Source: Halomonas alkaliantarctica
Lineage (GTDB): Bacteria > Pseudomonadota > Gammaproteobacteria > Pseudomonadales > Halomonadaceae
DNA length: 64,000 nucleotides
Direction: 5' to 3'
Assembly (NCBI RefSeq): GCF_029854215.1
Contig: NZ_CP122961.1
Span: forward strand, 1,178,001 to 1,242,000
In this document: positions 29,273 through 33,045 of the stretch, piece by piece
Layout of the letters: each line of letters begins with the position of its first letter
Position numbering within the stretch: the first letter of the stretch is position 1
Notes under the pieces: model-generated
Told to the model about the DNA's origin: nothing
The model's database searches: none
Seen by the model: the letters and a program-made list of their open reading frames with translations, nothing else
Program-made: the position numbers and the translations under genes

Positions 29273-30757
29273 ATGACTGTACGTACTCGCATCGCACCTT
29301 CTCCCACGGGAGACCCCCACGTTGGTACGGCTTACATCGCGCTTTTTAATCTATGTTTTGCACGTCAGCATGGCGGCCAGTTTATTCTCCGTATTGAAGA
29401 CACCGACCGGGTGCGTTCGACGCCTGAATCCGAACAGATGATTCTCGATTCATTGAGTTGGCTGGGTCTTGAGTGGGATGAAGGCCCCGATGTGGGTGGT
29501 CCGTATGGCCCTTATCGGCAGAGTGAGCGTGGCGATATTTATGCCCAGTACGCCCAGCAGCTGTTGGATGCTGGACATGCGTTTAAGTGTTATCGCACCA
29601 GTGAAGAGCTGGATGAGCTGCGTGAAACTCGCAAAGCCGCTGGCCTGCACTTAGCTTTAAAGCCCGCTGATTTGGCGCTGGATAGCCAAGAGCAAGCACG
29701 CCGTGAACAGGAAGGCTGGCCTTACGTGGTGCGCATGAACGTGCCCGCCGAAGGTGTTTGTGTGGTCAATGACATGTTGCGCGGTACGATTGAAGTCGAA
29801 TGGGCGCAGGTGGACGCGCAAATACTGCTTAAATCAGACGGTATGCCCACTTATCATCTAGCCAATGTGGTCGACGATCATCTCATGGCGATTACTCATG
29901 TACTGCGTGGGGAAGAGTGGATTAACTCAGCACCAAAGCACCAACTGCTATATGAGTATTTTGGTTGGGAGATGCCGCAGCTTTGCCATATGCCGCTGCT
30001 GCGCAACCCGGACAAGTCCAAACTTTCTAAGCGCAAAAACCCGACCTCCATCAATTACTATCGTCGGATGGGTTTTTTACCCCAGGCCGTTACCAACTAT
30101 TTGGGACGGATGGGGTGGTCGATGCCCGATGAGCGCGAGAAATTCAGCCTCCAGGAAATGATGGCGGAATTCGATGTTCAGCGTGTTTCGTTAGGTGGCC
30201 CGGTATTTGACCTGGAGAAGCTGACGTGGCTGAACGGTGTTTATATCCGTGAAGATCTGGACGACGATGCACTGTTGAGCGCACTGCGCGATTGGGCCTT
30301 CAATGAAGCCTATGTGAAGCAGATACTGCCGCAGGTAAGGCCGCGGGTAGAAACGCTATCCCAGGTAATGCCGCTGGCAGGGCACTTCTTCTCGGGCCTT
30401 CCGACGCTAACAAAAGAATCATTTGAAAGCGTGAAGCTTGAGGAAGAAGAGCTGGTCAAGCTGCTTCAGTTCCTTGTCTGGCGGTTCGAGGGCGTTACGG
30501 CTTGGAATAAAGAGGCGCTGCTGAACGAAGTTAAGCTGCTGGCCGAGCATTTTGAATTAAAAATGAAAGTGTTCCTGGCGCCAGTATTTATTGCCATTAC
30601 CGGCAGTACGTCCAGTACCTCCGTGATGGACGCCATGGCGATTCTGGGTTCAGACGTTACCCGGGCACGCCTGCGCAGTGCAATAGAGGTCTTAGGCGGC
30701 GTTTCTAAAAAACAGGCGAAGCGCTTTGAAAAGGAGTACCGGGAAATAGCTCCGTGA
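29273..30757 (+). CDS. gltX: Glutamyl-tRNA synthetase
   Basis: Charges tRNA-Glu with glutamate. The 494-residue class I synthetase has the HIGH-type motif in [15 protein letters not shown] near the N-terminus and the KMSKS-type loop [10 protein letters not shown] around residue 250, plus the C-terminal anticodon-binding helical bundle. The protein reads directly from the start into the Rossmann fold, as in discriminating bacterial GluRS. tRNA-Glu(TTC), its substrate, is encoded 260 bases downstream, behind a terminator and a separate tRNA promoter. Confidence 0.97.
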
Positions 30758-30907: not shown

Positions 30908-30983
30908 GGGGCCTTAGCTCAGCTGGGAGAGCGCAACACTGGCAGTGTTGAGGTCAGCGGTTCGATCCCGCTAGGCTCCACCA
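30908..30983 (+). tRNA. tRNA-Ala (anticodon GGC)
   Basis: A 76-base cloverleaf with acceptor stem GGGGCCT/AGGCTCC, D-arm TTAGCTCAGCTGGGAGAGC, anticodon GGC at 30941-30943 and T-loop TTCGATC. The CCA end is encoded. Confidence 0.97.
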
Positions 30984-31018
30984 ATCAGTAATCGCTTTCG
31001 CGAAGCGGCTCGATATAC

Positions 31019-31094
31019 GTCCCATTCGTCTAGTGGTCTAGGACACCGCCCTTTCACGGCGGTAACAGGGGTTCGAACCCCCTATGGGACGCCA
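31019..31094 (+). tRNA. tRNA-Glu (anticodon TTC)
   Basis: A 76-base cloverleaf with acceptor stem GTCCCAT/ATGGGAC, anticodon loop CTTTCAC (TTC at 31053-31055) and T-loop TTCGAAC. It lies 35 bases after tRNA-Ala, so the two are co-transcribed; the encoded end reads GCCA. Confidence 0.97.
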
Positions 31095-31714
31095 AAACTT
31101 CAGTACCCTTCCTAAACGTTTATTTCTCTAGCAATGAGCTCTCTCATCTGCTGGTTTTTTGTATTCCTGACGTTCACAAAAAAGCTACAAATCGACATTT
31201 TTTGGACGATTTTGTGCTTGACTTGTCCACTTTTGTTAATCTGCTTTTAAGGTTGTGCACAACCCCTTGTTGTTGACGCAAAAAATCTTTAACAGAACTT
31301 AAGTTGTTTAAAAACAGTCACTTATGGTAGATCAAAAAATAACCAATTTAAGGCTGACCCACTGCCCATGGCGATTTCGGGACGTTTTAAAGTGGTTGTG
31401 AACAGGGTTATCCACAGATAGTGTGGAAAACCCTGTTCAATACCTCAAGGCAGAAAAGTCAAGTGTTATTAGGGCCTGCTTAGGCGTTTTTAATGGTCGC
31501 GATATAGGCGAAAGAGTGATTCAAAAGGTAGTAGGTAAAGCGCTATCAAGCGGAGCCATCGGCTGACGGCTCTGCTATTGCATCGGGAGGTCAGTGAGGC
31601 CAAAGGGTGGCTTGGTAGGTAGCGAGCTGGCTAAGGGCATCTGAGGTGCAGTAGCATGATCGTTGGTGTGGCGCGTTGATGGCCCAAGAGGCAGAGGGTT
31701 ACTCAGCCATACGC
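31095..31714. other. Non-coding gap between convergent transcripts with DnaA-box cluster
   Basis: About 620 bases without a gene, lying between the 3' ends of the tRNA operon and gltA. The key element is 31399-31439: arms TGAACAGGGTTATCCACA and TGTGGAAAACCCTGTTCA, 18 bases each with one mismatch, around GATAG. The arms contain two opposed DnaA boxes, TTATCCACA (31408-31416) and TTTTCCACA (minus strand, 31422-31430). Weaker relatives are TTGTCCACT (31223-31231) and the palindrome GGTTGTGCACAACC (31251-31264). The part between (31270-31360) is AT-rich and includes GATCAAAAAATAA at 31330. This is the make-up of a replication-related DnaA-binding locus, origin-like or titrating. A small hairpin with T-run (31474-31491) may end the tRNA transcript. 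Confidence 0.6.
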
Positions 31715-31758: not shown

Positions 31759-33045
31759 TTATTTTTTCGGGTAGTCGCGCTGGTCGTGACCAATGTAAAG
31801 CTGACGCGGACGGCCGATTTTATAGCTTTCGCTAAGCATCTCATTCCAATGAGAGATCCAGCCAATGGTGCGAGATACCGCGAAGATCACGGTAAACATA
31901 TTGGTTGGGATGCCCATCGCTTTCAGGATGATGCCCGAATAGAAGTCTACGTTCGGGTATAGCTTACGCTCGATGAAGTACTCGTCTTCGAGGGCAATCT
32001 GCTCAAGACGCTTGGCGATTTTAAGCTGCGGATCGTCGGCCATGCCGAGTTCTGCAAGTACTTCGTCGCAGGTCTCTTTCATTACCTTGGCGCGCGGATC
32101 GAAGTTGCGATATACGCGGTGTCCAAAGCCCATTAGCTTAAACCCGTCATCTTTATCCTTGGCTTTATCGACAAAGCGCTGAATATTCTCTTCGGAGTCA
32201 TCGCCAATTTCGTCAAGCATGGCCAGCACAGCTTCGTTAGCGCCACCGTGAGCGGGGCCCCAAAGTGCCGCGATACCTGCACTGATGCAGGCGAACGGGT
32301 TAGCCCCCGTGGAGCCTGCCAGGCGTACCGTCGAGGTAGAGGCGTTCTGCTCGTGATCCGCATGCAACATAAAGATGCGGTCCATGGCTTTCGCGTATAC
32401 CGGATTGATTTTGTACTCTTCGCACGGGTTGCTGAACATCATGTAGAGGAAGTTCTCTGCATAGCTCAGGTCGTTGCGCGGGTAGTTGAACGGTTGGCCG
32501 ACATTGTATTTGTGCGACATCGCCGCCAAAGTAGGCATTTTGGCAATCAGCCGAATAGCGCTGATCTCACGATCTTCCTCTTTAGTAATGTCCATGTGGT
32601 CATGGTAGAAGGCTGCTAAACCACCCACTACGCCGCATAGGATAGACATCGGGTGCGCATCGCGGCGGAACCCTTTAAAGAAGTTGTTAATCTGGTCGTG
32701 AACCATGGTGTGGTTACGAATGCGCGATTCAAAATCCGCGTACTGCTCGTCGTTGGGTAGCTCACCAAACAGAAGGGTGTAGCACACTTCAACGAAGTTA
32801 GACTCTTTGGCCAGTTGATCAATCGGGTAGCCGCGGTGTAGCAGCACGCCCTTGCCACCATCAATATAAGTGATGGCAGACTGGCAGGAAGAGGTGGCCA
32901 TAAAGCCGGGGTCGTAGGTGAACAGGCCTTCTGCGCCTAAGCCGCGCACGTCGATGACGTCAGGGCCAAGTGTGCCAGAGTACATCGGTAGATCGATCGG
33001 GTTATCCAGACCGTCTACCGTTAATGTCGCTTTCCTGTCAGCCAT
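31759..33045 (-). CDS. gltA: Citrate synthase (type II)
   Basis: Condenses oxaloacetate and acetyl-CoA to citrate, first step of the TCA cycle. The 428-residue length and the N-terminal segment (KATLTVDG...) fit the hexameric, NADH-sensitive type of Gram-negative bacteria. Catalytic histidines are in [13 protein letters not shown] and [15 protein letters not shown] and the catalytic aspartate in [23 protein letters not shown] precedes the ATG by five bases. It is transcribed divergently from sdhCDAB and has its own promoter and terminator. Confidence 0.98.

Follow-up and report, generated by a model that had tools for sequence, protein, structure and literature searches.

The window analysed here, a stretch of 64,000 bp (bases 1178001-1242000 of the closed 4,228,891-bp genome of Halomonas alkaliantarctica), contains a non-coding gap on which a tRNA-Glu gene (31019-31094, plus strand) and gltA (minus strand) converge. 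Two DnaA boxes, both perfect matches to TTWTNCACA, face each other in this gap across the spacer GATAG. They are enclosed by a 41-bp inverted repeat (31399-31439), the 18-bp arms of which differ at one position and flank a 5-bp centre. Weaker boxes at 31223 (two mismatches) and 31253/31254 (TTGTGCACA, one mismatch) as well as an AT-rich stretch are also present. The original prediction for this locus had described these same features, each of which was confirmed at its position, and had read them as resembling either a replication origin or a DnaA-titrating locus. The number of perfect DnaA boxes in the window is ordinary (4, compared with 3.65 in shuffled sequences); a head-to-head pair with 5-bp spacing, of which the window has one, was absent from all 60 dinucleotide shuffles. 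DnaA-reactivating sequences (DARS) are a main route by which active DnaA is restored in E. coli before each round of replication, and the gap probably holds an element resembling DARS2, read on the minus strand, in a variant form with a predicted Fis site placed before the IHF site.

Comparison with the DnaA-control loci of E. coli proved to be the right lead, and the layout and conservation of the site back the suggestion of a control locus outside oriC. On the minus strand, the core consists of TTTTCCACA, 5 bp, TGTGGATAA, 3 bp and TGTTCACAA (boxes I, II and III). The core of E. coli DARS1 reads TTATCCACT, 5 bp, TGTGGATAA, 3 bp, TGTGTATTA, and that of DARS2 reads TTATTCACC, 5 bp, TGTGGATAG, 3 bp, TGTGAAGAA; a section of PMC5742627 describes box I as opposite to boxes II and III in both sites, with equal spacing. 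Deletion primers given in part of PMC4585315 flank the DARS2 core on both sides. A second arrangement within the E. coli rppH-mutH stretch (L074, position 2952) was rejected as the DARS2 core, as these primers bracket the one at 2636, which is the sole match there to the core pattern. This pattern, TTWTNCACNNNNNCTGTGGATANNNNTGT, fits DARS1, DARS2 and the Halomonas site. It occurs once in the 4.23-Mb genome (reversed-pattern control, 0), and with up to two mismatches it has no match in the E. coli datA (4 kb) or oriC (2.5 kb) stretches.

Other opposed pairs were observed in the genome. A second head-to-head pair with 5-bp spacing is located at genome bases 783139-783161 (L078), in a gap between two open reading frames (ORFs) and without a third box; TTATCCACA boxes are found near it at 781798, 782727 and 783872. 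Opposed TTATCCACA pairs with a 19-bp spacer are located at 3442744-3442780 and 4128302-4128338.

A search of genomes of the same order with 406 bp around the element showed that every one of the 37 same-genus genomes, own included, carries the block (best E ≤3.4e-29, best match ≥138 bp), while the same query gave nothing stronger than E 2.2e-4 in 21 other genomes of the order. Thirty of these loci (own plus 29 relatives) were aligned and their gene context was determined: gltX, tRNA-Ala and tRNA-Glu are found on one side of the element and gltA on the other in every one. Conservation of the boxes in close relatives, which the original prediction had proposed to check by alignment, is evident, so that the prediction is not refuted on this point. 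Mean column identity is 0.98 at 31403-31422 compared with 0.54-0.70 in the flank 31103-31202, and the anchors TTGACTTGTCCAC and TATCCACAG are 191-192 bp apart in the 30 loci. The conserved block covers approximately 31217-31463 (~245 bp); the extent first proposed, 31223-31439, proved too narrow. Of the inverted repeat, the two 9-mers and their 5-bp spacing are kept in 30/30 loci, and the 18-bp arms (with at most one mismatch) in just three, own included. The palindrome as such is therefore not what selection holds, and its outer arms are mostly accidental. The ends of the block bear inverted motifs, CTTGACTT at the 31217-31234 side and AAGTCAAG (AAAAGTCAAG) at the 31454-31463 side.

Downstream of the core, a predicted Fis site at +87 matches its consensus in all aligned loci, and is followed by a predicted IHF site at about +106 (mean of 1.2 mismatches) and a distal DnaA box (Table 1). 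In E. coli DARS2, a motif scan placed two IHF-like sites (+94, +110) ahead of a Fis match (+146), and the order IHF then Fis is likewise given in part of PMC4245941. The internal order is thus swapped in the Halomonas element. A terminator scan also picks out the palindrome of the distal box, beyond tRNA-Glu, as a terminator-like hairpin, with two such matches in the region compared with a shuffle mean of 1.0, so that DnaA box and transcript end may be combined here.

Table 1. Features of the DARS2-like element and its neighbours in the window (loci: the 30 aligned; protein-binding sites are predictions)
Feature	Position	Strand	Observation
DnaA box I, TTTTCCACA, of the DARS-type core	31422-31430	-	Perfect TTWTNCACA in 30/30 loci, own included
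DnaA box II, TTATCCACA, opposed to box I (spacer 31417-31421)	31408-31416	+	Perfect in 30/30 loci
DnaA box III candidate, TTGTGAACA (on +), orientation as box II, start 12 bp from box II	31396-31404	+	Sequence conserved; 2 consensus mismatches in the window, mean 1.87 across 30 loci
Fis-consensus site GGTTATTTTTTGATC (GNNYANNNNNTRNNC), 87 bp from box I start	31330-31344	-	Perfect in 30/30 loci
IHF-like site TAAGTGACTGTTT (consensus TAANNNNTTGATW)	31312-31324	-	2 mismatches here; mean 1.2; perfect in 5/30 loci
Distal DnaA-box palindrome GGTTGTGCACAACC (TTGTGCACA on both strands)	31251-31264		TTGTGCACAA (31262-31253) invariant over the loci
Conserved end motif CTTGACTTGTCCACTTTT, with weak DnaA-like TTGTCCACT inside	31217-31234	+	TTGACTTGTCCAC present in 30/30 loci
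Opposite end motif AAAAGTCAAG	31454-31463	+	GTCAAG invariant over the loci
tRNA-Ala(GGC) and tRNA-Glu(TTC), transcribed towards the element	30908-31094	+	ARAGORN; same order in 30/30 loci
gltA (citrate synthase), convergent neighbour	31759-33045	-	PF00285; beyond the element in 30/30 loci, sometimes ~1 kb off
gltX (glutamyl-tRNA synthetase), upstream of the tRNAs	29273-30757	+	PF00749, PF19269; 30/30 loci

The match to dnaA begins at genome base 16. GC skew was sampled in 21 stretches (the window and 20 others of 20 kb each). Positive values span 0 to 1.9 Mb and return in the last 20 kb; between 2.1 and 3.8 Mb the values are negative, apart from a single stretch at 2.74 Mb. A finer scan over the last 39 kb showed the skew to turn from negative to positive at ~4.206 Mb, among seven perfect DnaA boxes (4205777-4207358, 1.6 kb) with a 72% AT stretch adjacent. 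This region is likely oriC, at about 22 kb from dnaA, with the alternative place being directly before dnaA, where two further boxes (4228617, 4228830) and a 71% AT stretch are found. Both origin candidates are more than 1.2 Mb from the element, which is located at 1.2094 Mb, and the skew switch is ~1.23 Mb away. For 12 of 15 same-genus genomes the exact length is available (G012 consists of two contigs), and in these the distance between element and dnaA is 0.23-0.34 of the genome, with a median of 0.28; rounded sizes give values near 0.28, 0.28 and 0.34 for the other three. It is looser in other families (about 0.26, 0.36 and 0.39 by rounded sizes, for three single-contig genomes of 12). The corresponding distances from the origin in E. 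coli, taken from part of PMC5010248, are 0.10 for datA, 0.21 for DARS2 and 0.33 for DARS1. Within the genus, the element is an intergenic site far from oriC at a conserved relative position, as expected of the DARS2 type.

The module also recurs in other genera. A composite pattern, consisting of the core with ATTTTTTNA 54-68 bp on, was found in at least 119 stretches of the named genome collection. Genera among the matches listed include Halomonas, Vreelandella, Billgrantia, Chromohalobacter, Salinicola, Pseudomonas, Marinobacter, Acinetobacter, Alcanivorax, Methylotenera, Methylophilus, Thiobacillus, Zoogloea and others, many of the matches being metagenome-assembled. At least six of the 119 repeat contigs of separately searched genomes, and the loci are not independent: the 80 that were grouped by lineage include 16 from Marinobacter, 11 from Halomonadaceae, eight from Pseudomonas and eight from Acinetobacter. 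The spacer between core and Fis site is 58-62 bp in all 119 matches listed, though 54-68 bp was allowed, and the four Fis positions left free by the search are all correct in 97 of them, compared with about 1 in 64 expected. Of the 119, 82 have an IHF site within one mismatch at +100 to +125 (a perfect one in 38), and 75 have a distal DnaA box; the background, determined for 80 of these matches, was 0.5% for the distal box and, for IHF, 1.2% at random positions and 9.4% in shuffled sequence windows. A Fis-matching A-tract occurs at +84 to +88 in 80/80 mapped loci, with a Fis site in 62. Weak matches in six other-family genomes were also followed up: the core is present within one mismatch in 7/7 stretches around them, and five other-family stretches were scanned for the Fis consensus, which is found at +86 to +88 in L066, L067, L070 and L071 and not there in L068.

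In the loci examined, the addresses of the module differ among lineages. It is located between gltA and gltX in Halomonadaceae, sometimes with gene-length sequence between gltA and the element (a metagenome-assembled genome (MAG) labelled Halomonadaceae, L162, gave no gltA match), between pyrD and a cation-efflux gene in Marinobacter (L117), between a PP-loop gene and an SLT transglycosylase gene in Acinetobacter (L155), and between priA and pntB in an Ectothiorhodospiraceae MAG (L126). An element with the same two neighbour genes as in L155 was observed on the 177-kb Acinetobacter cumulans plasmid p1_060092 (L154, 2873-3107). A mobile-element origin was considered and dropped. In the plasmid collection the Acinetobacter version gave five records, of which one matched in full and four, from A. 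baumannii, along 44% of the query; three of these five records are chromosome-sized (3.66-4.09 Mb). The phage collection gave no match to the element. Composite matches labelled Alphaproteobacteria were observed among L134, L151, L194, L205 and L210, these being Saccharibacter (L134, beside uvrC), Rubricella (L205) and two MAGs, and the fifth of these matches belongs to a MAG labelled Crenarchaeota, which is possibly misbinned.

By analogy with E. coli, boxes I and II would be occupied by ADP-DnaA in a head-to-head arrangement over the 5-bp spacer, with box III assisting. Acting with the distal DnaA box, Fis (+87) and IHF (about +106) would introduce bends into the DNA and alter the DnaA complex such that ADP is released, and the freed apo-DnaA would take up ATP and be ready for the next initiation at oriC, with a possible effect on initiation timing. 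The element is DARS2-like by its layout and new in its internal order and address, with a function inferred from its E. coli counterpart. Its recurrence leads to a broader proposal, which is favoured with some reserve: that a DnaA-recharging module of fixed geometry is widespread in gamma- and betaproteobacteria and was moved between intergenic addresses as lineages diverged, E. coli DARS2 being a rearranged form. In the geometry proposed for this general module, the three-box core is followed by Fis (about +86), IHF (about +106 or about +118) and, some 168 to 206 bp on (+168 to +206), a distal box of the TTATGCACA type.

A number of observations weigh against a DARS2-like function. Box III and the IHF site each carry two mismatches in the window, and Fis precedes IHF where the order in E. 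coli DARS2 is the opposite. Among the 80 grouped loci, an IHF site is present in only one of the eight from Pseudomonas and a distal box in none of the eight from Acinetobacter. Of 390 genomes of the order, only 38 carry the composite pattern (6/6 same-genus, 3/12 from other genera of the family and 29 elsewhere; no control matches among the matches listed), so that either many genomes lack the module or the pattern is overly strict. When one mismatch is allowed, the core is found in 226 of the 390, including 12/12 of the other-genus family members, and several have more than one; being widespread and multiple in this form, the core alone need not represent a DARS.

The surroundings of the element recall datA, a likeness noted in the original prediction, in that a tRNA operon is transcribed into the site with a convergent gene beyond it. 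A datA-like site would bind ATP-DnaA with IHF and promote ATP hydrolysis or titrate DnaA, with tRNA read-through regulating IHF binding. Such regulation of datA by tRNA read-through is described in part of PMC10950094, and at the Halomonas locus the sole terminator-like match between tRNA-Glu and the core is the hairpin of the distal box itself. However, the likeness extends to the gene layout and not to the boxes, the arrangement of which fits the DARS core: the datA stretch is without the core pattern even at two mismatches and its own opposed pair is 3 bp apart. The distance from the origin (0.23-0.34, compared with 0.10 for datA) also speaks against it, as do the flanking ORFs of the examined other-genus loci, which are protein genes (tRNAs were not scanned there). 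A datA-like role is considered unlikely. It is more doubtful still that the site serves as a DnaA roadblock or terminator that keeps the convergent tRNA and gltA transcripts apart and plays no part in initiation control. The flanking genes are convergent in 30/30 loci, and DnaA bound near a terminator can block transcription, according to a section of PMC10950094; the core and Fis geometry nevertheless recurs between divergent genes, namely pyrD and the cation-efflux gene in Marinobacter and the PP-loop and SLT genes in Acinetobacter, and spacing fixed over ~245 bp is unneeded for such a role.

The near-perfect inverted repeat in the window sequence could also suggest an RNA element, with the hairpin acting in a transcript. 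This is very improbable: the full 18-bp stem is limited to 3/30 loci, the outer pairs being broken elsewhere while the 9-mers are conserved, and only tRNAs reach the gathering score in an Rfam scan. The RNA hairpin was disfavoured, as neither the scan nor pairing across the 30 loci gives it support. DnaA boxes and AT-rich DNA within a non-coding gap would similarly be in keeping with a second or cryptic replication origin. The reading of the element as an origin was dropped because GC skew, a check put forward with the original prediction, has no switch at the locus and is positive on both sides of it; oriC itself was rejected on this ground. With the sign change at ~4.206 Mb, among seven boxes, providing a better candidate, and perfect boxes at the locus numbering only two, a cryptic origin here is scarcely credible.

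If the proposal of a widespread module holds, control of initiation by nucleotide exchange on DnaA would be a general proteobacterial mechanism rather than one confined to E. coli and species close to it. With a short pattern that detects the module in Pseudomonas, Acinetobacter, Marinobacter, Halomonas and several betaproteobacteria, the DnaA cycle would become testable in many bacteria. Natural variants, such as the swapped Fis/IHF order, a flipped IHF site and the differing addresses, could teach which parts of the geometry matter. That the element lies at a similar distance from the origin across the genus is relevant to the question of whether DARS position is selected.

With respect to known systems, E. 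coli datA shares with the Halomonas site its position between a tRNA operon that runs towards it and a convergent gene, as well as DnaA boxes and an IHF site (a predicted one in Halomonas); it differs in being without the core pattern and closer to the origin, and the element does not fit the datA type. E. coli DARS1 (101 bp, bioD-uvrB, 17.5 min) is alike in that box I is opposed to box II across 5 bp and box III starts 12 bp after box II. It is unlike in that its regulatory region is short (about 50 bp) and ADP release takes place without IHF and Fis, as described in part of PMC5742627. E. coli DARS2 (455 bp, rppH-mutH, 64.0 min) has the same orientation and spacing of the three-box core, downstream IHF and Fis sites (predicted ones in Halomonas), a distal DnaA box and an intergenic position far from oriC. 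The two differ in the order of the predicted sites, in length (455 bp compared with the conserved block of ~245 bp, likeness having been compared in core sequence only) and in address, which in Halomonas is gltX-tRNA-gltA in 30/30 loci. Among the titles and abstract openings listed in a literature search, with subscription papers outside its scope, none describes DARS in Halomonas, Pseudomonas or Acinetobacter. DARS2 homologues have been reported from beta- and gammaproteobacteria proximal to E. coli, with the core and the IHF and Fis sites conserved at a similar genomic position (Kasho 2014, Miyoshi 2021), a figure of the latter giving seven species. The elements described here differ from those homologues in that the addresses examined vary by lineage and the order of Fis and IHF is swapped.
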